A stretch of 64,000 nucleotides of DNA from Corbicula japonica. Taxonomy: Eukaryota > Mollusca > Bivalvia > Venerida > Cyrenidae. How positions within the stretch are numbered: position 1 is the first letter of the stretch; each line of letters begins with the position of its first letter. The stretch spans positions 1,364,001-1,428,000 of the forward strand of contig JAZAYU010000038.1 in assembly GCA_038501625.1 (NCBI GenBank). The letters are read 5' to 3'. Under the pieces are notes generated by a model that saw only the letters and a list, made by a program, of their open reading frames with translations, ran no database searches and was not told where the DNA came from. Made by a program: the position numbers and the translations under genes. Positions 1 through 63,634 of this stretch are shown in pieces.

Positions 1-599
1 ATATATTTCCTGAACGTTTTAAATAGCACGCACTTACTAATATATTATTCAAATTGATTAGGAACACAAAGTTTTCTATCACTTATTCTTAATTCTAAGC
101 AAGCAAATACTTAAGTAAGAATAATTCCAATCAACATTTAATTGTACTTGGATTGTTGCATATTCCCTAGCGTTTTCCGTCTTCAATTATTTGTGCTATC
201 GAATTTTCTCGTTTTAAAGTTACTGTAGTATGTCGAATATGAAATTATTGCAGACAGTTTTGGAATTTCGCACCGACATTTCTCACTTCGTTCTTTGAAA
301 TGTGATAAGACTAAAATTAATTCATGGATAACTTTAGCAATACACATTTACAAAAAACACATATTACATTTTACATATCAAGTGCACTAAAATTTCTATT
401 TTTCTTAAGATTTACGGCATAACTTACCCTAGTTCACTCCAAGTGCAGTTTATTTCCATTTCCTCTCAACTGTTATATATTATAAATAGGTTTTTACTCC
501 CTTCGCAATATAACTAATGACTTGCAATAAGGACTTGCGAAAATTTGACTCAAACAACACATATATCCAACTTCTATGCATTTGTATTTTCCAATTTAG
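1..599. other. Intron of gene 1, no recognised feature
   Basis: AT-rich sequence before the first visible exon. No phase-compatible exon, RNA gene or clear repeat was found. Other gene 1 introns without an entry of their own likewise show nothing clear. Confidence 0.4.
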
Positions 600-728
600 C
601 GGAAACCGAATGTGATCCGACAAATAACTGTGGCAACAATACAGAATGTGTGCCTGTTAATGGTAACAATGATTGCCAGTGCATAAAGGGTTTTCAGAAG
701 ATAGCACAAGCAGATAACAATTGTACTG
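600..728 (+). CDS. Gene 1 exon: EGF-like domain
   Basis: One six-cysteine EGF module (C-x6-C-x5-C pattern, ending C-x-C and a last Cys in NNCT). The acceptor is TTTAG before 600 and the donor is GTAAAT after 728. It is a phase 1-1 exon. It lacks the DIDEC calcium-binding start of the next exon. It is the first coding exon visible in the window. Confidence 0.75.
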
Positions 729-17909: not shown

Positions 17910-18203
17910 CCCGCCCGGCTAGCTCAGTGGATAGAGCATCGGACTGTCAATCCAGGGGTCGTGAGTTCGATCCCCAGCCGAGGCGGGAAAAATTTCTCCG
18001 TGAGAATTGAAGTCGGACATTGCGTCTGAGAGTCATTTGTCCCTCACCTCTGATTCAAGTGAGGAAGCAGTCAGTCGCTTGCGGAGAAATTTGTTAGTAC
18101 TGGTTAGAGACCCAGGAACACCGGTTAGTTGGACTGACCGCCGGGATATAACCAGAAAGGTGTTGAAACCAGGCGTTAAACCCCAAAACAAAACAAAAAA
18201 AAT
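17910..18203 (+). mobile_element. tRNA-Asp-derived SINE, copy 1
   Basis: Head 17910-17987 folds as a tRNA: CCCGCC pairs with GGCGGG, A box TAGCTCAGTGG, anticodon GTC (Asp), B box GTTCGATCC. A ~200-bp conserved body follows, ending CAGGCGTTAAACCCC and an ACAAA-rich tail. Only about six differences from the copy at 60478, so both are young. The 3' part recalls mollusc SINE families with a conserved central or V-like domain (family name not asserted). Confidence 0.85.
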
Positions 18204-21569: not shown

Positions 21570-30205
<8,636 letters not shown>

Positions 30206-34509: not shown

Positions 34510-35790
34510 ATCATTTCGTCAGATACTAAGCTGACACATCGATCATTTCACTAGATACTGAGTCGACATACCGATCATTTCGTAAGATACTAAGCCGACA
34601 CATCGATCATTTCACTAGATACTGAGTCGACATACCGATCATTTCGTCAGCTACTGAGCCGAATTACCGATCATTTCGTAAGATACTGAGCCGACACATC
34701 GATCATTTCATCAGATACCTAGCCAACACATTGATCATTTCGCTAGATACTGAGTCGACATACCGATCATTTCGTCAGATACCTAGCCAACACATTGATC
34801 ATTTCGCTATATACTGAGTCGACATACCGATCATTTCGTCAGATACTGAGCCAACACATCGATCATTTCGCTAGATACTGAGTCGACATACCGATCATTT
34901 TGTTAGATACTGAGCCAACACATCGATCATTTCACTAGATACTGAGTCGACATACCGATCATTTCGTCAGATACCTAGCCGACACATTGATCATTTCGTT
35001 AGATACTGAGTCGACATACCGATCATTTCGTCAGCTACTGAGCCAACACATTGATCATTTCGCTAGATACGGAGTCGACATACCGATCATCTCGTCAGCT
35101 ATTGAGCCGTCTTACCGATCATTTCGTTAGATACTGAGTCGACAAAAAAATAATTTCCTCAGATACTGAGTCGGTATATCGATCATTTCGTCAGATACTA
35201 AGCCGATATAACGATTATTTCGTCAGATATTGAGTCGACATTTCTTCAGATACTGAACCGACACATCGATCATTTTGCCAGATACTGAGCCGACACATTG
35301 ATCATTTTGCCAGATACTGAGCCGACACATCGATCATTTCGTCAGATACTGAGCCGACACATCGATCATTTCGTCAGATACTGAGTCGACATACCGATCA
35401 TTTCTTCAGATACTAAGCCGGCACATCGATCATTTCTTCAGATACTGGATCGAAATACCAATCATTTCGTCAGATACTAAGCCGACACATCGATCATTTC
35501 TTCAGATACTGGGTCGACATACCAATCATTTCGTCAGATACTGAGCCGACACATCGATCATTTCGTCAGCTACTGAGCCGATACATCGATCATTTCGCCA
35601 GACACTGAGCCGACATATCGATCATTTGGCCAGATACTGAGCCGACACATTGATCACTTCGCCAGATACCGAGCTTACACATCGATCATTTCTTCAGATA
35701 TTGAGCCGACACATCGATCATTTCGCCAGATACTGAGCCGACACATCGATTATTTCGTCAGATACTGAGCCGATACATCGATCACATCTG
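34510..35790. repeat. 32-bp minisatellite, about 40 copies
   Basis: Unit contains GATCATTTCGTCAGATACTG followed by AGCCGACACATC. Period 32 bases (for example 35341 to 35373). In the left half two variants tend to alternate (ACTGAGTCGACATACC and CTAGCCAACACATT types). In the right half the GCCGACACATC type predominates. It has stops in every frame, so it is not coding. Confidence 0.9.
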
Positions 35791-38986: not shown

Positions 38987-41900
38987 GTAAGAGCAACGAT
39001 TCACAAAGGTTTACAAACAATCAGAATATATTTACAGTACTGAAAATTATGAAATAGAAAATTTTTCCAATTCCGATCTGGTCCGATTGCACTCCATTTA
39101 TTTTACTCCAGACAATGCGCTCCAAACGATCTTTACGCTCAAACCGGTTCTTCCGATTCCGATCTTTTCGCTCTCGTTTTTCATTGGTTATTACTTATAA
39201 CGCATCTCGCGCTGAATTTACATTTGTTTGCCATTTATCTTATTTGCAGTTAAATGTTTTGTTCAATTTTGTTTAAACACCGTGGTTACTAAGAAAGTAA
39301 AGTGATCATTTTAGATCTGAAATGACATTTTATTAAATTTTACATCAGTTTAATGTATACCTGTACTAAGTTTTTATTACGTTGCAGTTTTGAAATATAA
39401 GCGTAAATGACACCCGATATTATGTACGCTGAAATATTGAAGTTTTGAAAGACTTAATAAGAATTTTCTTTCCGTTTTGCGTAATTTGCTGTAACATAGA
39501 AGTAAAAGAGATTATCGTGGGCTTTAAAACTTGCGAATCGTCGATCATAATAAACTTATTTAAATGTAAAAATCGGATTAATTTCTTTGTTTTTCACCGC
39601 TGAAATCAAAAGGGAAAAGATAGTTTCTCTTTTAGTTTCGGACAGCGTTTATGATTTATATTTCATACTGGACTTAATAATTGTTTACATTGAAATTTGT
39701 TTATTAGCATTAAATACATTTCAGTCGCGAATCTCCTTACTAAATAAAATAATTTATTATACTGCAACGAAATTTGCTTGAACTTTACCCATCGTGATAG
39801 GTGCTGATCGCCTTTGTTACAACCCGGACACATTTCAAATTCCTCCTCATAGTCACTGGAGTCATCATCAAAAAGATCTGTTGTATTGTACTCGCTTTCG
39901 GAAAGATTTTCATCACTTTCATTACTTTCTCGGCTTCTCTTCTTGGACTTTGTTTTCGGTTTCTTTGACTTAGGTTGTTTTTTTCTTTGCTTCCCGTTCT
40001 TGCTTTTTACGCTCTTTTTCTGCTTCTCTTTCAATTCGCTACTTTTCTTTTTCCTCTTTGCGTTGAACTTTTGCGATTTCTTGTTCTTTTTTCTGTCTTT
40101 CTCGTTCTTTTAACATCTCAAGAGATTTAGTACCAAAAATTGCTTTTGGAAGCCTTTCTGCAAAACGGCTTGACTTTGCTTTTAGCTTTATTTCCGGAAT
40201 ACGCAACTCTGAAAACGCCGGAGCAACATAATTGCCAGATACAAATTTAAGAATTTCCTCGTTTCTGGTTGTCTGCTACCAGTTATTCCCGTTTGATCTT
40301 CATTCAGAGTCCTCGACGACACCTGCTATAGGTTGTTTCTCATTTTCTTTATCTTCCTCTACCTGGACGTCATTCTTCTGCTTTTGTTGTAGCATTTTTG
40401 ACGCACCAAGTTTACTGGTGTCTATCCCATCTATCGTTAGCGGAAATAGCCCTGCCTTTCTGAAGCCATGAGCCGCATTTTCAAAGGTGGCTGGCAGCCT
40501 TGTCCCATGTTTGTTTCAACAATGCGGGAAATTCCTTCTTCGAGAGTGCGACGCCATATTCTTAAGCTGCCACTGCGTTTCCATGCCTGCTTCATTGGGC
40601 TAATAACCCAAATGTCCAGAGGGAGCATAATATGAATTGCATTTGCAACAAGGCAGTACAGTATGACACCGTTGCTCTTACAGTATTCTGCTGCTTCCAG
40701 TGACATATGTGTTGAATGTCCATCGACAAAGAGAATAATGGGGAATTCAATGTTTTCAGTTTTTGCAAATTCAACAAGTTTCTCTACGTATGCAACACAT
40801 GTCTGTGTCCATCCTGCCGTTCTTAGTCGTGGCATAAATGGCTTCAGGGAACCCAGATAGTCCAACATCTCTTAACCGCTCCCCTGGAAACAAGATCATG
40901 GGTGGAACAAATTCTCTAACAGCATTACATGCTGTCATTACTGTGATCTGAGCTTTGGTGTTTGTGACCATTTGCTTCCTTTGGGCGCAAGCACTTTGTC
41001 TGGTTTAACGGAGAGAGGGAAGCCAGTTTCGTCACCATTATACACCCTCCTTGGGTTCTTGATTACGCTCTCATAATTTGGAACTTCTTTGTCAAGGTAA
41101 TCAATCAAAGCATCGTACCATGCTTTAATCTTTTCGATTATCACATTAGCCCGTTCCTGTCCCAACCCCTTCGGCTTTCGCATGCATACTTCAGGATTCC
41201 TCTTAGTAAAACTTTCAAACCATCGATAGCCCGGCAAATTGTTTGTGAATTGTGTTTTGCTCCCATCAATATCCAGGACGTGCTTCACTTCTTTCAAAAA
41301 TTCAGCTTTGGTGAGTGGGTATCCAATCTCAGCCATTCACTTTGCATATCTTACAAGCGTTTCCTCTTCTGCAGCTGTTAGGACCGGTTTTCTGCCTACT
41401 GACCCACTCTCTTCGGGTACTCTACCGGCAAGCTTGTCAAGTAAGGTGGTTCTTGATTTGTTAAATGTTAACGCAGCTTTCTTTTTACTCAGAGAGCCCG
41501 ACATCACAGCTGGTAACGCTCTAGCCATCTGTTCTGGGGCATACTTCATGCGTTTTCTGGCGGTGGATTGAGCCGACATAGCCTGAAATCGAAACATATT
41601 ATGTTAACTCTGATTTAAAAATCAAGTAAAATCCAGGTACATGGAAATATATGCCCAAACCGGATGCATTAAGGGTGTCGATAATACATCAATGCACCTA
41701 AATTTGTTGACATAATATCGACACTCATATGTTTAAAGAACGAGGCTGTTTATGCGCAAAATCGCGTAAATATTAGTTCATGTAGGCCGTATTTAGCACA
41801 ATAAACATGACCAAAGTACAACATATTCGCAAATATTCATACGAAATAAATGCACTTACCTTAACGCTCGCGTTTAAAATATGGTGAAAAATTTTCAGTT

Positions 41901-44900: not shown

Positions 44901-47900
44901 GGAGGCCGATTAACAGAAAATCACTAGACGGTCCGGGTAACAACCTACTATTGTTATTCAAGTTCTTCTGTATATGCCCGTAACCATAATGGATCAGAAT
45001 CCCAACAAAATCGAATCGTTACTTAAGAAATGGCCGCGGATATACAATGATAATGCGTAGAACAAATTAAAGTGAACTCACGTTCTTCTAGATATCATAT
45101 TGCTATATCTCTTTTTCTTACACAGCTGCTACAACAACAAAAATGCCAACGACCACATCCAGTACTACGTCCAGTACTACGGATGACAAAACACTCCCAT
45201 TGCCTACGAACACATCAAGTACTACAGCTGACACAACAACCACAGTGCCTACATCCACTACCAGTACAACAGCTGACACAACAACCACAGTGCCTACATC
45301 CACTACCACTACTACAGCTGACACAACAACCACATTGCCTACGACCACTTCCAGTACTACATCCGACACAACAACAACCATGCCTACAACCACTTCCAGT
45401 TCTACGGCTGACACAACAACCACCATGCCTACAACCACTTCCAGTACTACAGCTGACACAACAACCACCATGCCTACATCCACTACCAGTACTACGGCTG
45501 ACACAACAACCACAGTGCCTACATCCACTACCAGTACTACGGCTGACACAACAACCACAGTGCCTACATCCACTTCCAGTACTACGGCTGACACAACAAC
45601 CACAGTGCCTACATCCACTACCAGTACTACGGCTGACACAACAACCACAGCGCATACATCCACTTCCAGTACTACGGCTGACACAACAACCACAGTGCCT
45701 ACAACAACTTCCAGTACTACGGCTGACACAACAACCACCATGCCTACATCCACTTCCAGTACTACAGCTGACACAACAACCACAGTGCCTACAACAACTT
45801 CCAGTACTACGGCTGACACAACAAACACAGTGCCTACAACATCTTCCAGTACTACGGCTGACACAACAACCACAGTGCCTACATCCACTTCCAGTACTAC
45901 AGCTGACACAACAACCACAGTGCCTACATCCACTTCCACTACTACAGCTGACACAACAACCACAGTGCCTACATCCACTTCCAGTACTACGGCTGACACA
46001 ACAACCACAGTGACTACATCCACTACCAGTACTACGGCTGACACAACAACCACAGTGCCTACGACCACTTCCAGTACTACAGCTGACACAACAACCACCA
46101 CGCCTACATCCACTACCAGCACTACGGCTGACACAACAACCACAGTGCCTACATCCACTACCAGTACTACGGCTGACACAACAACCACAGTGTCTACGAC
46201 AACTTCCAGTACTTCAGCTGACACAACAACCACCATGCCTACATCCACTACCAGTACTACGGCTGACACAACAACCACAGTGCCTACATCCACTACCAGT
46301 ACTACGGCTGACACAACAACAACCATGCCTACATCCACTTCCAGTACTACAGCTGACACAACAACCACCATGCCTACATCCACTACCAGTACTTCGGCTG
46401 ACACAACAACCACAGTGCCTACATCCACTTCCAGTACTACAGCTGACACAACAACCACCATGCCTGCATCCACTACCAGTACTACGGCTGACACAACAAC
46501 CACCATGCCTACATCCACTACCAGTACTACGGCTGACACAACAACCACCATGCCTACATCCACTACCAGTACTACGGCTGACACAACAACCACAGTGCCT
46601 ACATCAACTTCCAGTACTACGGCTGACACAACAACCACAGTGCCTACGGCAACTTCCAGTACTACGGCTGACACAACAACCACAGTGCCTACATCCACTT
46701 CCAGTACTACGGCTGACACAACAACCACAGTGCCTACATCCACTTCCAGTACTACGGCTGACACAACAACCACAGTGCCTACATCCACTACCAGTACTAC
46801 GGCTGACACAACAACCACAGTGCCTACATCCACTTCCAGTACTACGGCTGACACAACAACCACAGTGCCTACATCCACTACCAGTACTACGGCTGACACA
46901 ACAACCACAGTGCATACATCCACTTCCAGTACTAAAGCTGTCACAACAACCACAGTGCATATATCCACTTCCAGTACTACGGCTGACACAACAACCACCA
47001 TGCCTACATCCACTTCCAGTTCTACGGCTGACACAACAACCACAGTGCCTACGACAACTTCCAGTTCTACGGCTGACACAACAACCAAAGTGCCTACATC
47101 CACTTCCAGTACTACCTCCGACACAACAACCACAGTGCCTACATCTACTTCCAGTACTACGGCTGACACAACAACCACAGTGCCAACATCCACTACCAGT
47201 ACTACGGCTGACACAACAACCACAGTGCCTACATCCACTTCCAGTACTACGGCTGACACAACAACCACAGTGCCTACATCCACTACCAGTACTACGGCTG
47301 ACACAACAACCACAGTGCATACATCCACTTCCAGTACTACAGCTGACACAACAACCACAGTCCCTACAACAACTTCCAGTACTACGGCTGACACAACAAC
47401 AACAGTGCCTACATCCACTTCCAGTACTACGGCTGACACAACAACCACAGTGCCTACATCCACTACCAGTACTACGGCTGACACAACAACCACAGTGCCT
47501 ACATCCACTTCCAGTACTACAGCTGACACAACAACCACCACGCCTACATCCACTACCAGTACTACGGCTGACACAACAACCACAGTGCCTACATCCACTA
47601 CCAGTACTACGGCTGACACAACAACCACAGTGCCTACGACAACTTCCAGTACTACAGCTGACACAACAACCACCATGCCTACATCCACTACCAGTACTAC
47701 GGCTGACACAACAACCACAGTGCCTACATCCACTTCCAGTACTACGGCTGACACAACAACCACCATGCCTACATCCACTTCCAGTACTACAGCTGACACA
47801 ACAACCACCATGCCTACATCCACTACCAGTACTACGGCTGATACAACAACCACAGTGCCTACATCCACTTCCAGTACTACAGCTGACACAACAACCACCA

Positions 47901-50900
47901 TGCCTACATCCACTACCAGTACTACGGCTGACACAACAACCACAGTGCCTACATCCACTACCAGTACTACGGCTGACACAACAACCACAGTGCCTACATC
48001 CACTTCCAGTACTACGGCTGACACAACAACCACAGTGCCTACATCCACTTCCAGTACTACGGCTGACACAACAACCACAGTGCCTACATCCACTTCCAGT
48101 ACTACGGCTGACACAACAACCACAGTGCCTACATCCACTTCCAGTACTACAGCTGACACAACAACCACAGTGCCTACATCCACTTCCAGTACTACAGCTG
48201 ACACAACAACCACAGTGCCTACATCCACTAAAACTACTACAGCTGACACAACAACCACAGTGCCTACATCAACTTCCAGTACTACGGCTGACACAACAAC
48301 CACAGTGCCTACGACAACTTCCAGTACTACGGCTGACGCAACAACCACAGTGCCTACAACAACTTCCAGTACTACAGCTGACACAACAACCACATTGCCT
48401 ACATCCACTTCCAGTACTACGGCTGACACAACAACCACAGTGCCTACAACAACTTCCAGTACTACAGCTGACACAACAACCACAGTGCCTACATCCACTA
48501 CCAGTACTACGGCTGACACAACAACCACAGTGCCTACATCCACTTCCAGTACTACGGCTGACACAACAACCACAGTGCACACATTCACTACCAGTACTAC
48601 GGCTGACACAACAACCACAGTGCCTACATCCACTTCCAGTACTACAGCCGACACAACAACCACAGTGCCTACATCCACTTCCAGTACTACGACTGACACA
48701 ACAACCACAGTGCCTACATCCACTTCCAGTACCACAGCTGACACAACAACCACAGTGCCTACGACAACTTCCAGTACTACAGCTGACACAAAAACCACAG
48801 TGCCTACGACAACTTTCAGTACTACGGCTGACACAACAACCACAGTGCCTACAACAACTTCCAGTACTACGGCTGACACAACAACCACAGTGCCTATGAC
48901 AACTTCCAGTACTACGGCTGACACAACAACCACAGTGCCTACAACAACTTCCAGTATTACGGCTGACACAACAACCACAGTGCCTACATCCACTACCAGT
49001 ACTACGGCTGACACAACAACCACAGTGACTACATCCACTTCCAGTACTACGGCTGACACAACAACCACAGTGCCTACGACCTCTTCCAGTACTACAGCTG
49101 ACACAACAACCACAGTGCCTACGACAACTTTCAGTACTACGGCTGACACAACAACCACAGTGCCTACAACAACTTCCAGTACTACGGCTGACACAACAAC
49201 CACAGTGCCTATGACGACTTCCAGTACTACGGCTGACACAACAACCACAGTGCCTACAACAACTTCCAGTACTACAGCTGACACAACAACCACAGTGCCT
49301 ACATCCACTTCCAGTACTACGGCTGACACAACAACCACAGTGCCTACATCCACTTCCAGTACTACGGCTGACACAACAACCACAGTGCCTACGACAACTT
49401 CCAGTACTACGGCTGACACAACAACCACAGTGCCTACATCCACTTCCAGTACTACGGCTGACACAACAACCACAGTGCCTACATCCACTTCCAGTACTAC
49501 GGCTGACACAACAACCACAGTGCCTACATCCACTACCAGTACTACGGCTGACACAACAACCACAGTGCCTACATCCACTTCCAGTACTACGGCTGACACA
49601 ACAACCACAGTGCCTACATCCACTACCAGTACTACGGCTGACACAACAACCACAGTGCATACATCCACTTCCAGTACTACAGCTGACACAACAACCACAG
49701 TGCATATATCCACTTCCAGTACTACGGCTGACACAACAACCACCATGCCTACATCCACTTCCAGTACTACGGCTGACACAACAACCACAGTGCCTACGAC
49801 AACTTCCAGTACTACGGCTGACACAACAACCACAGTGCCTACATCCACTTCCAGTACTACGGCTGACACAACAACCACAGTGCCTACATCTACTTCCAGT
49901 ACTACGGCTGACACAACAACCACAGTGCCTACATCCACTACCAGTACTACGGCTGACACAACAACCACCATGCCTACATCCACTACCAGTACTACGGCTG
50001 ACACAACAACCACAGTGCCTACATCCACTACCAGTACTACGGCTGACACAACAACCACAGTGCCTACATCCACTTCCACTACTACAACTGACACACCAAC
50101 CACCATGCCTACATCCACTACCAGTACTGCGGCAGACACAACAACCACAGTGCCTACATCCACTACCAGTACTACGGCGTATACAACAAACACCATGCCT
50201 ACATCCACTTCCAGTACTACAGCTGACACAACAACCACCATGCCTACATCCACTACCAGTACTTCGGCTGACACAACAGCCACAGTGCATATATCCACTT
50301 CCAGTACTACGGCTGACACAACAACCACCATGCCTGCATCCACTACCAGTACTACGGCTGACACAACAACCACCATGCCTACATCCACTACCAGTACTAC
50401 GGCTGACACAACAACCACCATGCCTACATCCACTACCAGTACTACGGCTGACTCAACAACCACAGTGCCTACATCCACTTCCAGTACTACGGCTGACACA
50501 ACAACCACAGTGCCTACATCCACTTCCAGTACTACAGCTGACACAACAACCACAGTGCCTACATCCACTACCAGTACTACGGCTGACACAACAACCACAG
50601 TGCCTACAACAACTTCCAGTACTACGGCTGACACAACAACCACAGTGCCTACATCCACTACCAGTACTACGGCTGACACAACAACCACAGTGCCAACAAC
50701 AACTTCCAGTACTACGGCTGACACAACAACCACAGTGCCTACATCCGCTACCAGTACTACAGCTGACACAACAACCACAGTGCCTACATCAACTTCCAGT
50801 ACTACGGCTGACAAAACAACCACAGTGCCTACATCCACTACCAGTACTACGGCTGACACAACAACCACAGTGCCTACAACAACTTCCAGTACTACGGCTG

Positions 50901-53900
50901 ACACAACAACCACAGTGCCTACATCCACTACCAGTACTACGGCTGACACAACAACCACAGTGACTACATCCACTTCCAGTACTACGGCTGACACAACAAC
51001 CACAGTGCCTACGACCTCTTCCAGTACTACAGCTGACACAACAACCACAGTGGCCTACAACAACTTCCAGTACTACGGCTGACACAACAACCACAGTGCC
51101 TACAACAACTTCCAGTACTACGGCTGACACAACAACCACAGTGCCTACAACAACTTCCAGTACTACGGCTGACACAACAACCACAGTGCCTACATCCACT
51201 TCCAGTACTACGGCTGACACAACAACCACAGTGTCCAGTACTACGGCTACAGTGCCTACTTCCAGTACGGCTGACACAACAACCACAGTGCTAGACTACG
51301 GCTAACACAACCACAGTGCCTACATCCACTACCAGTACTACGGCTGACACAACAACCACAGTGCATACATCCACTTCCAGTACTACGGCTGACACAACAA
51401 CCACAGTGCCTACGACCTCTTCCAGTACTACAGCTGACACAACAACCACAGTGCCTACATCCAACTTCCAGTACTACGGCTGACACAACAACCACAGTGC
51501 CTACATCCACTACCAGTACTACGGCTGACACAACAACCACAGTGCCTACATCCACTTCCAGTACTACGGCTGACACAACAACCACAGTGCCTACATCCAC
51601 TACCAGTACTACGGCTGACACAACAACCACAGTGCCTACATCCACTTCCAGTACTACAGCTGACACAACAACCACCAGTGCCTACATCCACTACCAGTAC
51701 TACGGCTGACACAACAACCACAGTGCCTACATCCACTACCAGTACTACGGCTGACACAACAACCACCATGCCTACATCCACTTCCAGTACTACAGCTGAC
51801 ACAACAACCACATGCCTACATCCACTACCAGTACTACGGCTGACACAACAACCACAGTGCCTACACTTCCAGTACTACAGCTGACACAACAACCACATGC
51901 CTGCATCCACTACCAGTACTACGGCTGACACAACAACCACCATGCCTACATCCACTACCAGTACTACGGCTGACACAACAACCACCAGTGCCTACATCCA
52001 CTACCAGTACTACGGCTGACTCAACAACCACAGTGCCTACATCCACTTCCAGTACTACGGCTGACACAACAACCACAGTGCCTACATCCACTTCCAGTAC
52101 TACAGCTGACACAACAACCACAGTGCCTACATCCACTACCAGTACTACGGCTGACACAACAACCACAGTGCCTACAACAACTTCCAGTACTACGGCTGAC
52201 ACAACAACCACAGTGCCTACATCCACTACCAGTACTACGGCTGACACAACAACCACAGTGCCAACAACAACTTCCAGTACTACGGCTGACACAACAACCA
52301 CAGTGCCTACATCCGCTACCACTACTACAGCTGACACAACAACCACAGTGCCTACATCAACTTCCAGTACTACGGCTGACACAACAACCACAGTGCCTAC
52401 ATCCACTACCAGTACTACGGCTGACACAACAACCACAGTGCCTACAACAACTTCCAGTACTACGGCTGACACAACAACCACAGTGCCTACATCCACTACC
52501 AGTACTACGGCTGACACAACAACCACAGTGACTACATCCACTTCCAGTACTACGGCTGACACAACAACCACAGTGCCTACGACCTCTTCCAGTACTACAG
52601 CTGACACAACAACCACAGTGCCTACAACAACTTCCAGTACTACGGCTGACACAACAACCACAGTGCCTACATCCACTTCCAGTACTACGGCTGACACAAC
52701 AACCACAGTGCCTACATCCACTTCCAGTACTACGGCTGACACAACAACCACAGTGCCTACAACAACTTCCAGTACTACGGCTTACACAATAACCACAGTG
52801 CCTACAACAACTTCCAGTACTACGGCTGACACAACAACCACAGTGCCTACATCCACTACCAGTACTACGGCTGACACAACAACCACAGTGCCTACATCCA
52901 CTACCAGTACTACGGCTGACACAACAACCACAGTGCCTACATCCACTACCAGTACTACGGCTGACACAACAACCACAGTGCATACATCCACTTCCAGTAC
53001 TACGGCTGACACAACAACAACAGTGCCTACGACCTCTTCCAGTACTACAGCTGACACAACAACCACAGTGCCTACAACAACTTCCAGTACTACGGCTGAC
53101 ACAACAACCACTGTGTCAACATCCACTACCAGTACTACGGCTGACACAACAACCACAGTGCCTACATCCACTTCCAGTACTACGGCTGACACAACAACCA
53201 CAGTGCCTACATCCACTTACCAGTACTACGGCTGACACAACAACCACAGTGCCTACATCCACTACCAGTACTACGGCTGACACAACAACCACAGTGCATA
53301 CAACAACTTCCAGTACTACGGCTGACACAACAACCACAGTGCCTACATCCACTTCCAGTACTACGGCTGACACAACAACCACAGTGCATACAACAACTTC
53401 CAGTACTACAGCTGACACAACAACCACAGTGCCTACAACAACTTCCAGTACTACGGCTGACACAACAACCACAGTGCCTACATCCACTTCCAGTACTACG
53501 GCTGACACAACAACCACAGTGCCTACATCCACTTCCAGTACTACGGCTGACACAACAACCACAGTGCCTACATCCACTTCCAGTACTACGGCTGACACAA
53601 CAACCACAGTGCCTACAACAACTTCCAGTACTACGGCTGACACAACAACCACAGTGCCTACGACAACTTTCCAGTACTACGGCTGACACAACAACCACAG
53701 TGCCTACAACAACTTCCAGTACTACGGCTGACACAACAACCACAGTGCCTACATCCACTTCCAGTACTACGGCTGACACAACAACCACAGTGCCTACGAC
53801 AACTTCCAGTACTACGGCTGACACAACAACCACAGTGCCTACATCCACTTCCAGTACTACGGCTGACACAACAACCACAGTGCCTACATCCACTTCCAGT

Positions 53901-56900
53901 ACTACGGCTGACACAACAACCACAGTGCCTACATCCACTACCAGTACTACGGCTGACACAACAACCACACTGCCTATGACGACTTCCAGTACTACGGCTG
54001 ACACAACAACCACAGTGCCTACAACAACTTCCAGTACTACGCTGACACAACAACCACAGTGCCTACATCCACTTCCAGTACTACGGCTGACACAACAACC
54101 ACAGTGCCTACAACAACTTCCAGTACTACGGCTGACACAACAACCACAGTGCCTACATCCACTACCAATACTACAGCTGACACAACAACCACAGTGCCTA
54201 CATCCACTTCCAGTACTACGGCTGACACAACAACCACAGTGCCTACATCCACTTCCAGTACTACGGCTGACACAACAACCACAGTGCCTACGACCACTTC
54301 CAGTACTACGGCTGACACAACAACCACAGTGCCTACATCCACTTCCAGTACTACGGCTGACACAACAACCACAGTGCCTACATCCACTTCCAGTACAACG
54401 GCTGACACAACAACCACAGTGCCTACATCCACTTCCAGTACTACGGCTGACACAACAACCACAGTGCCTACGACAACTTCCAGTACTACGGCTGACACAA
54501 CAACCACAGTGCCTACATCCACTTCCAGTACTACGGCTGACACAACAACCACAGTGCCTACATCCACTTCCAGTACTACGGCTGACACAACAACCACAGT
54601 GCCTACATCCACTACCAGTACTACGGCTGACACAACAACCACAGTGCCTATGACGACTTCCAGTACTACGGCTGACACAACAACCACAGTGCCTACAACA
54701 ACTTCCAGTACTACAGCTGACACAACAACCACAGTGCCTACATCCACTTCCAGTACTACGGCTGACACAACAACCACAGTGCCTACAACAACTTCCAGTA
54801 CTACGGCTGACACAACAACCACAGTGCCTACATCCACTACCAATACTACAGCTGACACAACAACCACAGTGCCTTCATCCACTTCCAGTACTACGGCTGA
54901 CACAACAACCACAGTGCCTACATCCACTTCCAGTACTACGGCTGACACAACAACCACAGTGCCTACGACAACTTCCAGTACTACGGCTGACACAACAACC
55001 ACAGTGCCTACATCCACTTCCAGTACTACGGCTGACACAACAACCACAGTGCCTACATCCACTTCCAGTACTACGGCTGACACAACAACCACAGTGCCTA
55101 CATCCACTTCCAGTACTACGGCTGACACAACAACCACAGTGCCTACGACAACTTCCAGTACTACGGCTGACACAACAACCACAGTGCCTACATCCACTTC
55201 CAGTACTACGGCTGACACAACAACCACAGTGCCTACATCCACTTCCAGTACTACGGCTGACACAACAACCACAGTGCCTACATCCACTACCAGTACAACG
55301 GCTGACACAACAACCACAGTGCCTATGACGACTTCCAGTACTACGGCTGACACAACAACCACAGTGCCTACAACAACTTCCAGTACTACAGCTGACACAA
55401 CAACCACAGTGCCTACATCCACTTCCAGTACTACGGCTGACACAACAACCACAGTGCCTACAACAACTTCCAGTACTACTGCTGACACAACAACCACAGT
55501 GCCTACATCCACTACCAATACTACAGCTGACACAACAACCACAGTGCCTACATCCACTTCCAGTACTACGGCTGACACAACAACCACAGTGCCTACATCC
55601 ACTACCAGTACTACGGCTGACACAACAACCACAGTGCCTACGACAACTTCCAGTACTACGGCTGACACAACAACCACAGTGCCTACATCCACTTCCATTA
55701 CTACGGCTGACACAACAACCACAGTGCCTACATCCACTTCCAGTACAACGGCTGACACAACAACCACAGTGCCTACATCCACTACCAGTAGTACGGCTGA
55801 CACAACAACCACAGTGCCTACATCCACTTCCAGTACTACGGCTGACACAACAACCACAGTGCCTACATCCACTACCAGTACTACGGCTGACACAACAACC
55901 ACAGTGCATACATCCACTTCCAGTACTACAGCTGACACAACAACCACAGTGCATATATCCACTTCCAGTACTACGGCTGACACAACAACCACCAGTGCCT
56001 ACATCCACTTCCAGTACTACGGCTGACACAACAACCACAGTGCCTACACAACTTCCAGTACTACGGCTGACACAACAACCACAGTGCCTACATCTACTTC
56101 CAGTACTACGGCTGACACAACAACCACAGTGCCTACATCCACTACCAGTACTACGGCTGACACAACAACCACAGTGCCTACATCCACTTCCAGTACTACG
56201 GCTGACACAACAACCACAGGGCCTACATCCACTACCAGTACTTCGGCTGACACAACAACCACAGTGCATACATCCACTTCCAGTACTACAGCTGACACAA
56301 CAACCACAGTGCCTACAACAACTTCCAGTACTACGGCTGACACAACAACCACAGTGCCTACAACAACTTCCAGTACTACGGCTGACACAACAACCACAGT
56401 GCCTACATCCACTACCAGTACTACGGCTGACGCAACAACCACAGTGCCTACAACAACTTCCAGTACTACGGCTGACACAACAACCACAGTGCCTACATCC
56501 ACTACCAGTACTACGGCCGACACAACAACCACAGTGACTACATCAACTTCCAGTACTACGGCTGACACAACAACCACAGTGCCTACGACCTCTTCCATTA
56601 CTACAGCTGACACAACAACCACAGGGCCTACAACAACTTCCAGTACTACGGCTGACACAACAACCACAGTGCCTACAACAACTTCCAGTACTACGGCTGA
56701 CACAACAACCACAGTGCCTACAACAACTTCCAGTACTACGGCTGACACAACAACCACAGTGCCTACAACAACTTCCAGTACTACGGCTTACACAACAACC
56801 ACAGTGCCTGGAACAACTTCCAGTACTACGGCTGACACAACAACCACAGTGCCTACATCCACTACCAGTACTACGGCTGACACAACAACCACAGTGCCTA

Positions 56901-59900
56901 CATCCACTACCAGTACTACGGCTGACACAACAACCACAGTGCCTACATCCACTACCAGTACTACGGCTGACACAACAACCACAGTGCATACATCCACTTC
57001 CAGTACTACGGCTGACACAACAACAACAGTGCCTACGACCTCTTCCAGTACTACAGCTGGCACAACAACCACAGTGCCTACAACAACTTCCAGTACTACG
57101 GCTGACACAACAACCACTGTGTCTACATCCACTACCAGTACTACGGCTGACACAACAACCACAGTGCCTACATCCACTTCCAGTACTACGGCTGACACAA
57201 CAACCACAGTGCCTACATCCACTACCAGTAGTACGGCTGACACAACAACCACAGTGCCTACATCCACTACCAGTACTACGGCTGACACAACAACCACAGT
57301 GCATACAACAACTTCCAGTACTACGGCTGACACAACAACCACAGTGCCTACATCCACTTCCAGTACTACGGCTGACACAACAACCACAGTGCCTACATCC
57401 ACTTCCAGTACTACGGCTGACACAACAACCACAGTGCATACATCCACTTCCAGTACTACGGCTGACACAACAACCACAGTGCCTACATCCACTTCCAGTA
57501 CTACGGCTGACACAACAACCACAGTGCCTACATCCACTTCCAGTACTACGGCTGTCACAACAACCACAGTGCCTACATCCACTATCAGTACTACGGCTGA
57601 CACAACAACCACAGTGCCTACATCCACTACAAGTACTACGGCTGACACAACAACCACAGTGCCTACATCCACTACCAGTACTACGGCTGACACAACAACC
57701 ACAGTGCCTACATTCACTTCCAGTACTACGGCTGACACAACAACCACAGTGCCTACATCCACTACCAGTATTACGGCTGACACAACAACCACAGTGCCTA
57801 CATCCACTACCAGTACTACGGCTGACACAACAACCACAGTGCCTACATCCACTACCAGTACTACGGCTGACACAACAACCACACTGCCTACATCCACTAC
57901 CAGTACTACGGCTGACACAACAACCACAGTGCCTACATCCACTACCAGTACTACGGCTGTCACAACAACCACACTGCCTACATCCACTACCAGTACTACG
58001 GCTGACACAACAACCACAATGCCTGCTACTTCATCCAGTACTACAGCTGACACAACTGCCACAATGCCTACAACCACTTCTAGTACTACAGCTTACACCA
58101 CAATAACAATGCCTACGACAACATTTACTACCACAACTGAAGCAACAACCACAACTTTTAAAACAACAACTTCTTCTGGTACATTTTGACTTACACAAAA
58201 AAAGTTATCAAATTACCGCTCATTTCACTCAATTTTGTCTTATCAATTTTCCGTATATATATTTTTTTTAATTTTCGTCAACTGTACCAAGACACCTTTA
58301 TTCAGTGACGCGTCTAAGATCTGGCCATCGAAACTACTTTTAGTAGACTTTTGATTAATTTCTGAACCTGCAAAAGCCAGTGTAAAGTGGTCGTTTTCTA
58401 TTGACTGCCTGTCTGCACTTTAGTTAAACGCAGCACAAAACAGCATATAAATTCATACAATTGACGAACTACAAGCACAACAATTATGAGAATATATCTC
58501 AATATTTTGTTTAGCCACAAATGTTTCAATTACATTAATATAATACGAGTACTTGAAAAATACAGTATCAGTTTACACTTCTTGATCATTGTTGTCTGCC
58601 TGAGCATGACAGCATGGTCAGTGCATACGAAAACCAGATAAAGAAGTATCTTTGTATTTTACAGCACGATCAACACTTCTTCTGGACTACACTAGTCATA
58701 AATATATATCCTTCCAAGGTATCAGGGATGGATGTCAGGATTTGAAAGACTTTGACTGTCCTATAAAAGTCGGTGACGAGTTTCGAAGTAAAATGTATGT
58801 AAGTACCCAATACATAGTGAGTGAATGATTTTTGATAATTATAACAGAAGCTTCAAGTTGTTAAAAATAATTAGTATTTTGGCACTCTTTTAATACTCTT
58901 TGAACATATCATTTGAAACAGACCCATGCATGTTGCTTTACGGGCCTCTGGTAATAAAATTGAGAATAGCAACCAGTCTCAGTCATAAAGTCGTCCATTG
59001 GTTAGTTGTAAGACTGTGCTCGTTTTCAACCAATGAAATAGCTGAGATCTGAGATTGGTCTCAAAATTAAATTCATTGCGTTGCAGGCTGGAGGTACAAT
59101 ACATAACATCTTTAAAGGCTCTCAACTGACAATATCATTATAATACCGTTTTTTGTGTTAAGGAACAGGTGCACACTAAATTTTGAAAAAAAAAACTTTC
59201 ATGTTCAGAATTAGAAACAAAGAAAAGCGTTTTTAGATTTCTTGACTATGACTCGAGAAAAATTATGTTCATTGATTTAACTTTTAAATAATATCAGGCA
59301 TTTAAAACAATATATGATCGACAATTTTACCAACTGGTACTAGAATACTACTAAAACAAAAATTCAATTCAAATATTTTATTTTTATACCGATTTTGTAA
59401 CTGCGCAACAAATAAAGATGAAAGTTTGCTGCAGAAATTTACTCTTTTAGATTTGCGAAAATGGCATTGTAACCTTCAATGGCGCATATGAAGCTAATTT
59501 CATACCAACCAGTGCAAACGATAGGAAAGCTTTCGCGAGGAAAGCAATCGTTGCCCCATATTTCTCCAACATAGATCTTCGTACATCGGGCAGTGTCTTC
59601 TATCGTATATACAACGAAGAGGATTATGCAGCTGACTTTATTGTGGAAGCAACAATAAGTACAGTCCTGACTTCCGCCGGTTATCGTGATATGGACGTGT
59701 TCTTGCTGGTCGTGGTCACTTGGGAACGCGTGGCCGAGGTTAACAAACCTGTTACTGATGTATGTACATTTTATCAAATATTAAGAATCTATAAATCAAT
59801 TTTGCTATATTTAGACAATAGAGATTTTCCATTGAATGCCAGCAACTGAAAAGGAAAATGGATAAAAGTGAATTATAACTGATTTAATTAAAAGATACTA

Positions 59901-61974
59901 ACATTACAAAAATAACACAAAAAATAACAATCTTTTATACTATTAAGTATTGTTTTTCTTTTTGTTGTTATGACATAAAAATAACATAAATAAATACAAC
60001 GTTTAATACTTTTAAGTGTTGTTTTTCTTTTTTCTATAGTGTTACATCAGCAGCGTTTATCCTTGATGGTTTATATGTTGTTTAAAAATCTGACATGAAA
60101 AAAACAAGCTATGTTTTTTTTTAACTTTAAATTTATTATAACCGAGTTTAAGAAACAGAATCCTTATAAATGCAGCCAGTTTAGATATATTAGACGGAAA
60201 CAACTATAATTTGCTAACTTGTATAAAAAAATATATACAAATCGTGTAAAACCTGAAATAATTTGCCCTTTTTCAGATTTCAACATTTCAGTTAATCATT
60301 ATATCTGATGGATCATCTAATACCCTAGCATTCTTCTCTTACCTCGATGGAAGTATGAAGTTTTCCACCAAAGAAAACCTGATTGGCTTTGCAACTGAAC
60401 TTACACAAAGTTACAGGACAAGAGTGGTCGACCCTGTGGGTGAATACTTTAACTTAGGTTAGTGTATAGTGTCTTCGCCCGCCCGGCTAGCTCAGTGGAT
60501 TGAGCATCGGACTGTCAATCCAGGGGTCGTGAGTTCGATCCCCAGCCGAGGCGGGAAAAATTTCTCCGTGACAATTGAACTCGGACATTGTGTCTGAGAG
60601 TCATTTGTCCCTCACCTCTGATTCAAGTGAGGAAGCAGTCAGTCGCTTGCGGAGAAATTGGTTAGTACTGGTTAGAGACCCAGGAACACCGGTTAGGTGG
60701 ACTGACCGCCGGGATATAACCAGAAAGGTGTTGAAACCAGGCGTTAAACCCCAAACAAACAAAACAAACAAGTATAGATTTCTTCATTTTATTTCTTTGT
60801 TCGTTGTTTTTAAAATTAAACAAATTATACATACTTGGACAATTTCCATCATTTTTAATATTGCAATACCATTGGTTCTCATTCTAAAGTTACTTCATAA
60901 ACCGATAGGCACATTGACTGAGAGGAATGGTCACATTGACCGAGTGTTATGGTAACTCAGTTCGCATTCGCAAAATAAATTGACAGCACAGTAATTGGAG
61001 TGGAATGTACATTACAATATTTGGCCTTATGAATTACTATAATAAGATTTAACTTATTTACGAATGCAAGTTGTTACAGTTTTGCTGGTTAACTAGAATG
61101 GGGTTTCAATGTTGATTATCTGCTAAAATTATTTAAATCAATGCTCGAAAATAAAAAATTACAGGACGTATGGGCTTTCTATGGTTCTCCCTCAACACGG
61201 GTTTGGATGAAACCGAGTCTCCCTGTATGACGTGTAGGCTGTGGGTGAAAACTGAACAGTTCGAACAGAACACACTTCATCGATTCTGGAATGAGATACC
61301 CGATTGTCCTTGTGATCAGCGTACCATACCTACAACAGGATCCTTCAGAAGCTTAAAGTCGCAGATCCTGACGAGGGGATCCAATCTTTGCTATGACTTT
61401 ATTTCAAGTACAAGATTTAACAGACAGGGTTCGGTCAGTATTGAATTCTTTCTCTACGTTTAACTAGTATGGTCTCTAACCTTATATCATTTTTTTATTC
61501 AGAGGATTATATCAAATGTTTGAAATTGTGCTGCACATTATCAGGAAATTCAATTCGTAAACAAATTACGTCCCATTCAACCAATAACGAAATCTGAAGA
61601 TTTGTTCATGACCTCTGTTATTCGTCATGAATTTCTAGAAAACTGTATAAAAGTTTGAAACGCTCCACTTCACAGAATTCAAAAAAGCATATACTTATAA
61701 ACTTGTATAATTAAAAACTAAAACCTGGCCATTCCATTCGTGCTATAGATTTGTTGCTACAAGAATTCAGCAAACGACAGGGGATATATTTCCGACACTC
61801 AAAATGGTGGATTTAAGACGAGGTACAGTCAGCAAATCAAACCGTTGCTAGACGTAGAAATTACCATGAAAGGGATATGTTGTGATGCTGGACTTTGCGA
61901 CGCTTTCCATTCTGTTCGACCGCAAAACAGATGGTGTACATCTAGACCGTTAGTTTCGTCAGGTATAAGCATAT

Positions 61975-62029
<55 letters not shown>

Positions 62030-63634
62030 TTCACATTATTGATATTATTTCTAAATAAAAGTATTTTAATAACCTTGTGCTCGTCTGACATATATTCAGT
62101 AAAGTAAATGTAATACTCAATTTAATGATGACAAAAACGTCCCAAACACAGACAGCTTTCTAAAGCAATTAAAATGAATGATTCAAGATTAATAAGAATA
62201 TTGATGATGAGACCATTTCTTATTTAGGTGGAGGGACAGGTGATCCACATGTTTTGACGTTAGATGGAAAGCAGTTCACCTTTAACGGACATGGGGAGTA
62301 CACTATGATGAATCTAAACACCAGCGAGTTGACGTTTATACTTCAATCGAGGACAGAACCTTATTTAAATGAAAATAAAAAGTCTGTAGGAGCAACTGTA
62401 TACACAGCCTTTGCAGCGAGAGAGACGATGGGCGGAACACCGTCGTCTTTCACAATTGAACTGGATGCTGTAACATTGTCGGGTATAAATTTATCTCATC
62501 AACATTAGCATTAACATACCATACAAGCTCAATCTTCGACTTTTTATCTAGTTTTGCAAAGTTCTAGTATTGTGTTTTGCTTTTAAATTAGTTTTACTTT
62601 AGTTTTACAGACAAAATGGTCCCAAAAAGTTTATTTTTACGTTTGAATATTTAATACATTAAATACTAGTGAAATTATGATATAACATTTCGTCCAATCA
62701 GAAGAAGGCTTTCTAATTTATAATGGGGCGTAACATTATTGGACGGTTCTCTACCTTAAATATGGACAGCTATGTTTAAAATCTTTTTTTTCTTGTTGTT
62801 TATTACAGATCTTCAAATTAAAGTAAATGGCCGATCATGGACAACGGAGTTTAGCAAAGAAGATGAGTTCACTAGGGAGTTCGATAATGTATTCATCAGC
62901 AAGCCGAAGCCAAAGACTGTTGAAGTTACATTCCTTAACTCACGCAAGTATCTTGCGATTATGGAAAATATTTATAATTTATCCAGTCACAGAAAGTTAT
63001 TGTCAAAGTGAACTGTTAAATTATGTTTTGTCAAGTGATAAAGAAACGCAGTGTGACATTTATTTGCAATATGTTGTAAACGCTTTGATAACAACAATGA
63101 AAAAATCTGCACATAACTTCCCTATGTAACAGCGCACATGGTACAGTACCGAATGTCGAGTAATGAGATTACAATTTCCGGGAAAAGCGTGAAACGGGAA
63201 AACTAGAATCATATTCAATGGTTACTTTGCGTTTCTTGATCTCTAGAGTAAAGCATCTTGACAAAGAATTCGAGAATGATCAAATAAAATTCTTACCTGT
63301 CTAAGGCTTGTTTTGCATAATATATTTATGTAACAATGTCATAGATGAATATTGTTTGTGTTCAGGCACATGATTATAGCCTTTTTTCATTTAATCTCAT
63401 CAGAAATTACAACTTATTTGTTAACATTTCATATTGCAGGTATAAGGGTATCTGTAGAGGCAACAAATAAATTACTGACCATCGCGTTTAGTTTACCGAA
63501 CCAATACGCTAATTTGACAAGGGGTCTTTTAGGCAATGCAAACGGTAACCCGGACGACGACCTCATTTTTCCTAATGGGACAGTATTATCAACAAACTCA
63601 ACAGAAAGACAAATCTTCCAGTATGGACAAGCAT
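38929..63634 (+). CDS. Gene 3: giant MUC4-like mucin (signal peptide, PTS repeats, NIDO, AMOP, VWD), 3' partial
   Basis: Exons 38929-38986, 45126-58178, 58665-58798, 59451-59759, 60277-60457, 61165-61428, 61771-61962, 62228-62482, 62809-62943 and 63440-63634 join in phase. Order: signal peptide, a 13-kb Thr/Ser-rich tandem-repeat exon (about 4,350 residues if uninterrupted), NIDO, AMOP, VWD. NIDO-AMOP-VWD after a long mucin domain is the known MUC4 layout. The likely product is a heavily O-glycosylated secreted or surface mucin. The VWD end and any EGF or transmembrane part lie beyond 64000. The repeat exon has frameshifts between about 51050 and 56050 that look like assembly artefacts. Confidence 0.85.
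39785..41597 (-). pseudogene. Pogo-like DDE transposase, disrupted
   Basis: Minus-strand pieces in order: helix-turn-helix part with KKKAALTFNKSRTTLLDKL (41597-41337); CENP-B-like and first catalytic Asp in NGDETGF (41336-40938); AQITVMTACNA (40971 leftward); second Asp in FVDGHSTH; third Asp in LPLD before PMKQAWKR (40868-40437). A Lys-rich then acidic tail ends with CPGC (39785-40034). Lesions: an in-frame TGA at 41337-41339 (probably a former Trp codon), one frameshift near 40970 and one near 40800. The canonical Q before P-L-D is changed. Not functional as it stands. Confidence 0.85.
42071..42205. mobile_element. Foldback element of a second family, nested in the pogo element
   Basis: Long inverted repeat. 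TATTTGGTT...TGTGAGGATATATTGCCGGT is mirrored by ACCGGCAATATATCCTCACA...AACCAAATA, with a centre of about 25 bases. It has no internal gene. Confidence 0.85.
43440..43535 (+). repeat. Dispersed hairpin repeat, copy 5 (3' truncated)
   Basis: Matches copy 3 up to CAGGCTCGGTTTCATTGAGCC and GGGCAGT, then stops. The hairpin stem is kept in part. Confidence 0.5.
43838..43875. repeat. Poly-C/poly-A tract
   Basis: C-rich run with T interruptions followed by about ten A. Length may be unreliable in sequencing. Confidence 0.85.
44172..44786. mobile_element. MITE with ~25-bp terminal inverted repeats and TA flanks
   Basis: Left end CCATAAACTGGGATATTTTT and right end, read inward, CCGTAAATTGGGATATTTTG. 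TA on both sides (44170-44171, 44787-44788). About 615 bp, no transposase. The termini suggest the Tc1/mariner superfamily. Confidence 0.65.
45126..58178 (+). CDS. Gene 3 giant exon: PTS mucin domain
   Basis: Follows acceptor CACAG and enters in frame (AATTTKMPT). Almost the whole exon is a 45-base unit coding TTADTTTTVPTSTSS: 11 of 15 residues are Thr/Ser, with one Asp and one Pro per unit. Variable sites are V/M/L/T (9), P/H/T (10), T/S (12) and S/T (14). No cysteine in frame. The frame is open 45126-51052 and again about 56084-58178; between these lie about a dozen indels. The array degenerates near 58020-58178 (MPATSSS, FTTTTEATTTTFKTTTSS) before donor GTACAT. Long antisense frames are shadows of the period-3 repeat. 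Confidence 0.85.
45180..58120. repeat. 45-bp tandem array, about 290 copies
   Basis: Period 45 bases throughout. Higher-order structure is visible: 675-bp (15-unit) blocks repeat at 53.3-55.6 kb, and a 315-bp (7-unit) block repeats at 48.8-49.3 kb. A longer duplication links about 50.33-51.05 kb with 51.90-52.63 kb. This indicates expansion by unequal exchange. Confidence 0.92.
58179..58664. other. Gene 3 intron, no feature
   Basis: AT-rich intron with nothing recognised. The same holds for the unlisted parts of 58799-59450, 59760-60276, 60771-61164, 61429-61770, 62483-62808, 62944-63439 and 63635-64000. Confidence 0.4.
58665..58798 (+). CDS. Gene 3 exon: segment between mucin domain and NIDO
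   Basis: Codes LLLDYTSHKYISF, a two-Cys loop (DGCQDLKDFDC) and FRSKMY. Acceptor TTACAG, donor GTAAGT, phase 1-0. Confidence 0.7.
58950..59073. repeat. Diverged foldback element in gene 3 intron
   Basis: Imperfect inverted repeat (ACCAGTCTCAG against CTGAGATTGGTCTCAAAAT; CCATTGGTTAG against CCAATGAAATAG). Its arms resemble those at 30697 and 36185 (AGTCTCAAATCTC), suggesting a related older family. Confidence 0.55.
59451..59759 (+). CDS. Gene 3 exon: NIDO domain, first part
   Basis: Contains the NIDO core: IVAPYFSNIDLRTSGSVFYR, then the aspartate-rich YNEEDYAADF and the strand VFLLVVVTWERV. NIDO is the nidogen-type extracellular domain of MUC4 and relatives. Acceptor TTTAG, donor GTATGT, phase 0-0. 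Confidence 0.85.
60277..60457 (+). CDS. Gene 3 exon: NIDO domain, second part
   Basis: STFQLIIISDGSSNTLAFF matches the NIDO strand NTFQ-(V/L)-xx-DG-x-S, and IGFATELTQSY closes the domain. Acceptor TTTCAG, donor GTTAGT (weaker than the usual GTAAGT), phase 0-1. A SINE begins 20 bases after this donor. Confidence 0.83.
60478..60770 (+). mobile_element. tRNA-Asp-derived SINE, copy 2
   Basis: Same family as 17910-18203 with only a few differences. tRNA head with anticodon GTC, body ending GCGTTAAACCCC, and a CAAACAAA tail. Imperfect target duplication GTATAG..TCTTC at 60464 and 60772. Inserted 20 bases downstream of the NIDO exon donor. Confidence 0.88.
61165..61428 (+). CDS. Gene 3 exon: AMOP domain, first part
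   Basis: Codes GFLWFSLN, then the AMOP cysteine pattern CMTCRLWV, FWNEIPDCPCD and LCYDFISS. AMOP is an extracellular adhesion-associated domain found in MUC4. Acceptor TTACAG. The donor G|GTTCGG is non-standard but gives the right phase (1-1) for the next exon. Confidence 0.78.
61771..61962 (+). CDS. Gene 3 exon: AMOP domain, second part
   Basis: ANDRGYISDTQ, then KGICCDAGLCDAFHSVRP with the CC pair expected near the AMOP end, then RWCTSRP. Acceptor ATTCAG at 61770 gives phase 1 (the alternative AAG at 61763 gives phase 0). Donor GTATAA. Confidence 0.72.
61972..62033. repeat. (TTTA)n microsatellite
   Basis: About 15 copies of the tetramer, starting nine bases after the donor of the preceding AMOP exon. 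Confidence 0.95.
62228..62482 (+). CDS. Gene 3 exon: VWD domain start
   Basis: GDPHVLTLDGKQFTFNGHGE is the diagnostic start of a von Willebrand type D domain, followed by LQSRTEP and FAARETMGGTPSSFTIEL. Acceptor TTTAG, donor GTATAA, phase 1-1. Confidence 0.88.
62809..62943 (+). CDS. Gene 3 exon: VWD domain, middle, with GC donor
   Basis: Codes LQIKVNGRSWTTEF and TVEVTFLNS. Acceptor TTACAG, phase 1. No GT donor fits; CAC|GCAAGT at 62944 gives phase 1 and a GC-AG intron joining to the next exon. Confidence 0.7.
63440..63634 (+). CDS. Gene 3 exon: VWD domain, Gly-Leu-Leu-Gly motif
   Basis: IRVSVEATNKLLTIAFSLP, then RGLLGNANGNPDDDLIFPNG, the conserved VWD end motif with calcium-type acidic cluster. 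Acceptor TTGCAG, donor GTAAGT, phase 1-1. The gene continues past the window. Confidence 0.85.

Follow-up and report, generated by a model that had tools for sequence, protein, structure and literature searches.

Vertebrate MUC4 carries one giant tandem-repeat exon, followed by NIDO, AMOP and VWD domains, the last with a GDPH motif, and then by EGF modules and a membrane segment. The accessible part of one account of human MUC4 describes exon 2 as a 48-bp motif repeated over 7.5-19 kb in a single exon (PMC2360313), and the available portion of another gives MUC4 three EGF modules and names GDPH as a putative cleavage site (PMC8660890). Cnidarian mucin4-like proteins from Actinia tenebrosa and others, as set out in the accessible text of PMC9080433, share a NIDO-AMOP-VWD core and have regions rich in proline, threonine and serine (PTS) whose length is variable and not conserved. 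Here we describe a candidate gene of this type in the bivalve Corbicula japonica. It lies in a stretch of 64,000 nucleotides (hereafter the window) that spans positions 1,364,001 to 1,428,000 of the forward strand of contig JAZAYU010000038.1 (assembly GCA_038501625.1), where a long array of 45-bp units stands 5′ of exons encoding NIDO, AMOP-like and VWD segments. A giant repeat exon as such is already of a known kind, because the human gene offers one. We interpret this array as the probable mucin-like stalk exon of a cell-surface gene of MUC4 type in which the core is fixed and the stalk is exchangeable and length-variable.

The 45-bp tandem array extends over 45170..58116 (plus strand, as for all features of this gene given below), as delimited with Tandem Repeats Finder and by a table of its units. 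It comprises 286.8 copies with 91% matches between neighbours and the consensus TTADTTTTVPTSTSS, and has a G+C content of about 50% with a marked strand skew, compared with 29-43% in 1-kb intervals outside 45-58 kb. The array is enclosed in a candidate mucin exon of 13,053 bp as assembled (45126..58178), which runs from a candidate acceptor (ttacacag/CTGC) to a candidate donor (TCTG/gtac), is bounded by phase 1 on both sides and has a length divisible by 3. Its left part (45126..51051) is open in the entry frame and encodes 72% Thr+Ser and no Cys (measured on 45125-51049). Each 15-residue consensus unit has Thr or Ser at about 11-12 positions, with nine positions of the T and S runs varying between types, and hence approximately 11-12 possible O-glycosylation sites plus one Asp and one Pro. 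These features point to an exon that would be spliced and translated and to a peptide that is predicted to be O-glycosylated, for which the regular glycosylated rod proposed earlier is plausible.

The original prediction had described about 290 near-identical, almost invariant units. The array itself is real, yet 'almost invariant' proved too strong a description. The unit table holds 289 pieces, 279 of them full-length, with 66 peptide types and 95 nucleotide types, and exact TTADTTTTVPTSTSS accounts for 72 of the 279 full-length units (51 and 47 for the second and third types). The predicted copy number was not borne out either, since a value near 290 is an assembly figure and frame-breaking indels lie within the array. 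Identity to the consensus is lowest at the two ends of the array: values of 0.76 and 0.84 occur among its first units and the final two units reach 0.84 and 0.87, compared with a mean of 0.96 and a minimum of 0.87 in the middle. Blocks of 15 units are also duplicated, such as those at 50441 and 52009 or at 54125 and 54800, with identities as high as 99.4%. Because of these low-identity edges and recurrent blocks, the array appears to expand by local duplication and unequal exchange. The same trend toward lower unit identity at array edges is reported for human MUC4 in the portion of PMC13345508 that is accessible. When 7,985 candidate relatives of the repeat, selected for sharing the most common words, were scored, none reached E <= 0.001.

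In the splice model, eight downstream exons join the stalk exon in phase and read through without a stop. The first (58665..58798), which has counterparts at four other loci, is N-terminal to NIDO. It is followed by two NIDO exons (59451..59759 and 60277..60457), two AMOP-like exons (61165..61433 and 61749..61962), the second with CCY and CC..LCD..RP motifs, and three VWD exons (62228..62482, 62809..62943 and 63440..63634), after which the gene runs on past the window. The GDPH codons (62239..62250), where the protein may be cleaved, lie at the start of VWD. An earlier splice model, in which the AMOP-like exons ended at 61428 and began at 61771, was replaced because the other loci revealed the start of the CCY-bearing exon, and the last VWD exon now ends one base later than in that model. 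The best donor of the second VWD exon is GC (CAC/gcaagt), giving an apparent GC-AG intron. For the spliced exons 58665-63634, NIDO (PF06119) scored 64.7-64.8 bits against a Pfam cut-off of 25, and VWD (PF00094) scored 56.1-56.2 bits against a cut-off of 22.9. Just past the window, after VWD, C8-3_MUC4 (PF23263) scored 35.2 bits (cut-off 25). The predicted series of in-phase NIDO, AMOP and VWD exons was therefore upheld by profile search for NIDO and VWD and in its joins, whereas AMOP remained below threshold. A search of the core against NCBIfam returned no family, and a protein search that scored 6,989 candidates yielded a single relative, which aligned over 56% of the query at 28% identity.

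Farther downstream, 18 EGF-type pattern hits occur between 68.5 and 86.6 kb in window coordinates, and four of six pieces tested from 66-87 kb passed a Pfam EGF cut-off. A hydrophobic LSLILGLGVGIPLCVLALAAIIVCIVLY segment follows at 100595-100708, and a match resembling a tail lies at 101450, with the putative tail near 101.6 kb; both resemble those of relatives and hint at a membrane topology. Five EGF exon copies also lie 5′ of the mucin exon (26558..29522; copies at 26558, 27612, 28340, 29137 and 29406). All three copies tested pass Pfam EGF, and all five probably belong to the same gene as the mucin exon.

To place this gene among its relatives, we read sequence from C38:1264001-1528000, C801:66001-96330, C878:1-19730 and C1215:1-10980. 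A genome search with one VWD exon located at least five family loci, a count that rests on this single search and is a lower bound: the window, contigs C801 (91%), C878 (81%) and C1215 (80%), and an upstream paralogue (74%), termed paralogue A. Over 444 shared columns, core identity to the window gene is 84.7% for C801, 78.2% for C1215, 73.9% for C878 and 63.3% for paralogue A. Paralogue A shares contig and strand with the window gene, lies approximately 100-115 kb upstream of it, and has NIDO, AMOP-like and VWD exons that are 51-76% identical to its counterparts. Its core is 65.6% identical over 547 codons with dN 0.25 and dS 1.43, values that were computed with the first splice model and include a dS near saturation. 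These values are consistent with purifying selection on the core, in keeping with a head that stays fixed while the stalk changes.

The stalks of these genes differ in kind. In paralogue A, the stalk exon is 8,460 bp long, has phase-1 boundaries on either side and falls within 8,550 bp of stop-free frame, whereas the other two frames hold 67 and 132 stops (stretch -67500 to -56200). Units of 75 bp (71.0 copies) and of 66 bp (34.4 copies) make up two arrays of this exon, separated by a third array of 96-bp units (5.9 copies). At C1215, a 39-bp array reading TEATSPTTASSTT is stop-free for at least 524 codons and its frame runs off the start of the contig. Thr+Ser amounts to 72%, 68% and 69% in the exons of the window gene (open parts only), paralogue A and C1215, with Lys+Arg at or below 0.4% and no Cys. 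Thus, among the three mucin exons, unit length and sequence differ while the protein chemistry is kept. In C801 the repeated unit is instead 1,346 bp long and contains a pair of EGF exons; at least 12.9 copies with 99% identity fill 66001-83411, and this array appears to be very young. Further EGF exons, at 83.7 and ~84.7 kb, separate it from the core, which lies at 85848; the exon at ~84.7 kb is of the window gene's EGF type, with 67-73% DNA identity to the EGF exons there. C878 has a run of no fewer than 15 Sushi exons ahead of its core (13875), and all 15 reading frames tested exceed the Pfam cut-off. No open piece of at least 40 residues with more than 30% Thr+Ser was found on either strand of C801:66001-85848 or C878:1-13875, although a mucin exon farther upstream is possible.

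The original prediction of a MUC4-type plan is supported, with a giant Thr/Ser repeat exon, NIDO, an AMOP-like segment and VWD with GDPH, and the intact 8.46-kb mucin exon of the tandem paralogue makes it more convincing. The repeat unit differs even among paralogues of one genome. Compared with vertebrate MUC4, the window gene differs in having a 45-bp rather than a 48-bp unit, a divergent AMOP, 18 downstream EGF-type hits rather than three EGF modules together with EGF exons upstream, and both tandem and dispersed paralogues with other stalks. The extra domains of cnidarian mucin4-like proteins likewise vary among members. There, however, the N-terminal additions are CUB, ZP and FN3, in place of the mucin, EGF or Sushi arrays seen here, and some members have SEA, whereas no Pfam SEA was found in the piece tested here (PMC9080433, accessible part). 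Among the matches listed in our literature search, which covered few subscription papers, we found no paralogues within one genome that combine one core with stalk arrays of mucin, EGF or Sushi type at a shared position.

Exons bounded by the same phase on both sides, such as symmetric phase-1 exons, can insert, drop or duplicate without a frame shift, as in exon shuffling. SUSD2- and Mesh-like proteins also unite AMOP, VWD and Sushi in one protein, but there Sushi follows VWD, whereas at C878 the Sushi exons precede NIDO. Read directly from the sequence, all inspected boundaries are phase 1: those of the first core exon of the five genes, three mucin donors, two mucin acceptors, and the EGF and Sushi exons. 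This symmetry would explain how mucin, EGF and Sushi modules can swap place here, because the frame is kept. In an unrooted tree of five tips, the window gene groups with C801 (ultrafast bootstrap 82), so the tree does not split into mucin-stalked and other genes. Most simply, these two genes would share an EGF series, and the mucin exon would have been gained in one or lost in the other.

In the proposed mechanism, the stalk exon would add a long Thr/Ser chain without Cys that is O-glycosylated. It would be followed in order by NIDO, AMOP-like, VWD (GDPH) and C8-3 segments, EGF-type modules, a hydrophobic stretch and a tail. The stalk would hold the rest of the protein off the membrane, lifting or shielding the head, or would form a dense coat. 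Its array would be exchanged or remodelled, such that at paralogues the place 5′ of NIDO is occupied by other mucin units, EGF exon pairs or Sushi exons. The stronger form of this proposal, in which a NIDO-AMOP-VWD-EGF receptor is conserved and a phase-1-bounded place 5′ of NIDO holds a different array at each of the five loci, is put forward tentatively and falls somewhat short of an even chance. The arrays would be three kinds of mucin exon, still-expanding EGF exon pairs and Sushi exons. The probability of this stronger form is lowered by words shared between units, which hint at common descent of some mucin units.

Several observations weigh against a MUC4-type gene with an exchangeable stalk. 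AMOP scored below the Pfam cut-off of 25 (13.5 bits for the core and 16.7 bits for the AMOP-like exons alone), and the corrected whole core gave no Pfam AMOP match at E <= 0.01 (E 0.079 with the first splice model). A genome-wide AMOP search returned seven matches, none within the window. A joined piece carried no Pfam hit for SEA, though a middle exon may be missing from it, and a SEA domain near the membrane, which had been guessed from sequence, was dropped. In the upstream relative, the hydrophobic segment matched no Pfam family. No signal-peptide exon was found; the first exon is unlocated and no signal-peptide test was made. Codon-level selection was sought in the variation within the array and none was seen: rare unit variants are synonymous in 21 of 41 possible cases, conservative among T, S, P and A in 20 of 40, and other in 24 of 54. 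Coding constraint within the array was accordingly dropped as support. The frame of the stalk exon is broken as assembled. Its left part can also be read on the minus strand for 1,978 codons without a stop, and openness alone is for this reason weak evidence of coding. Finally, three of the six pairs of mucin units share words of 11-13 bases, which leaves their independent origin unclear.

This last point bears on a rival that we regard as a substantial minority possibility, in which the mucin exon is ancestral, its units form one remodelled lineage, and the EGF- and Sushi-stalked loci lost it without a refill from outside. The longest common words are 12 bases between the window's 45-bp unit and the C1215 unit, 13 between the 45-bp unit and the 66-bp unit of paralogue A, and 11 between the C1215 and 66-bp units. 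Words of these lengths were reached by only 8, 9 and 13 of 1000 triplet-shuffled pairs, respectively. We had assumed that the mucin units were unrelated and withdrew this assumption after the shared-word test. The window gene, with EGF exons plus a mucin exon, also suits an ancestral mucin stalk. On the other hand, the 75-bp unit of paralogue A has at most six bases in common with any other unit, and among the loci read, Sushi exons occur at C878 only.

A second rival, to which we give comparable weight and which likewise remains short of the preferred reading, holds that the family is not MUC4 by descent. It would instead be a lineage-specific surface family of NIDO, AMOP, VWD and EGF modules that came by its mucin stalks independently. 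The divergence of AMOP is compatible with this view, as are the EGF modules in excess of the three that the available text of PMC8660890 gives for MUC4, and at two of the five family loci NIDO has no mucin exon beside it. Even so, the order NIDO-AMOP-VWD-GDPH is that of MUC4, and the Pfam family over cut-off after VWD is one named for MUC4. The assignment of AMOP itself, with its sub-threshold Pfam score, rests on profile-profile similarity. The piece between NIDO and VWD carries the AMOP cysteine pattern, and it matched an alignment of five AMOP sequences with an hhalign probability of 86% and an E value of 5.1e-6. Four members of that alignment were built from the genome AMOP matches, and the fifth carries a precomputed Pfam AMOP. 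At E <= 1, the AMOP profile matches two of the five family members, the window gene included.

It is unlikely that the stalk differences are assembly artefacts, with mucin exons lost from C801 and C878 or with these contigs chimeric. C801 and C878 are 149 kb and 130 kb, and the 99% identical 1,346-bp EGF blocks of C801 form an array of a type that assemblers mishandle. Nevertheless, EGF or Sushi exons stand on the same contigs as the NIDO exons, with phase-1 boundaries, and the Sushi reading frames of C878 differ among themselves. C801 moreover keeps its window-type EGF exon, with the identity given above, next to NIDO.

We consider it equally improbable that the frame breaks are real and mark a null or truncated allele, ending at a stop at 51080 after approximately 1,985 mucin residues and leaving NIDO-VWD untranslated. 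The entry frame is open from 45092 up to that stop, and within 45092-58190 it contains 22 stops (the last at 58187, past the donor), compared with 40 in the second frame and 234 in the third. The candidate splice sites, the matching phases and the length agree with the original prediction of a single splice-bounded exon, but an uninterrupted coding exon is not supported by the sequence as assembled. Alignment to the unit gave 20 indel rows, every one of them within 51052..56048. The entry frame is lost over 51052-54040, with internal returns, in a region that includes a scrambled stretch (51233-51306) and further indels to 54040. It is lost again between a compensated indel pair at 55992 and 56048, and 56066-58175 is open in the original frame. 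These stops and indels are present in the sequence, and the fifth upstream EGF copy likewise has an in-frame stop (TGA). However, every indel found sits within the repetitive array, the eight 3′ exons are stop-free, and dN/dS of the core is about 0.17 against paralogue A, though averaged over an old divergence.

The positions of the indels offer a further argument against a null allele. Outside the scrambled stretch, 8 of 12 indels fall within 1 nt of variable unit sites (binomial P 0.028). Variable sites are defined here as those differing in over 10% of units; there are seven, and their neighbourhoods take up 16 of the 45 positions. This enrichment is modest and the sites were picked from the same array, which belongs with the points that weigh against our reading. 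Three of the four exceptional indels represent one event, CACCAGTG, whose placement is ambiguous by 1-2 bases and can touch a variable site. Five of the 12 cleaner indels (three CACCAGTG and two CACATG) resemble blends of the unit variants CACAGTG and CACCATG. Because the indels cluster where common unit variants differ, a blended consensus is suggested, and the frame breaks in 51052-56048 are probably assembly errors in which different copies or haplotypes were merged. Assembly errors and collapse in repeats are described in the accessible part of PMC6868369. Given the frame-breaking indels and the probable blending, the copy number of the array and its total length are provisional.

Least probable is a non-coding intronic minisatellite that is skipped. 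In its favour, the 45-bp period by itself leaves several frames of the repeat open, and variation between units shows no purifying selection. Against it, two of the paralogous loci carry an open exon that is rich in Thr and Ser but distinct from that of the window gene, in the same place, strand and donor phase, and units that differ in length and sequence all encode 68-72% Thr+Ser, Lys+Arg of at most 0.4% and no Cys.

Other elements were observed in the window. Positions 1-14190 (plus strand) hold the 3′ portion of a further gene belonging to this family, with EGF_CA exons and a hydrophobic segment at 13229-13399; its EGF series begins near -4.9 kb. A tblastn search found no NIDO-AMOP-VWD exons between this gene and the preceding one, in a region whose upstream 30 kb include 500 N. 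At 8913-9708, an array of TACCA pentamers gives way to a tract rich in CAA/CACCAACAACAA, and a 32-bp tandem array at 34508-35784 (40 copies, 78% matches) has a period that is no multiple of 3. A LINE-type reverse transcriptase remnant occupies 23330-25029 (RVT_1 32.4 bits over 23854-25029, cut-off 29.6). Transposase-like frames occur at 39666-41603 on the minus strand, where one of two pieces tested matches DDE_1 (26.3 bits, cut-off 22). Two tRNA-Asp-like sequences with similar 3′ flanks (17913-17984 and 60481-60552) probably represent a tRNA-derived SINE.

If the proposed MUC4-type gene with an exchangeable stalk is correct, the length and chemistry of the stalk, whether an O-glycan brush, an EGF rod or a Sushi rod, would evolve apart from the head. 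The origin and turnover of mucin repeats are an open question, and here related genes of one genome keep the head and change the stalk. Mucin exons in assemblies may resemble pseudogenes through consensus errors. The window gene and C801, with 84.7% core identity, differ by the mucin exon next to NIDO, and this pair would make the gain, loss or replacement of a stalk testable within one species.

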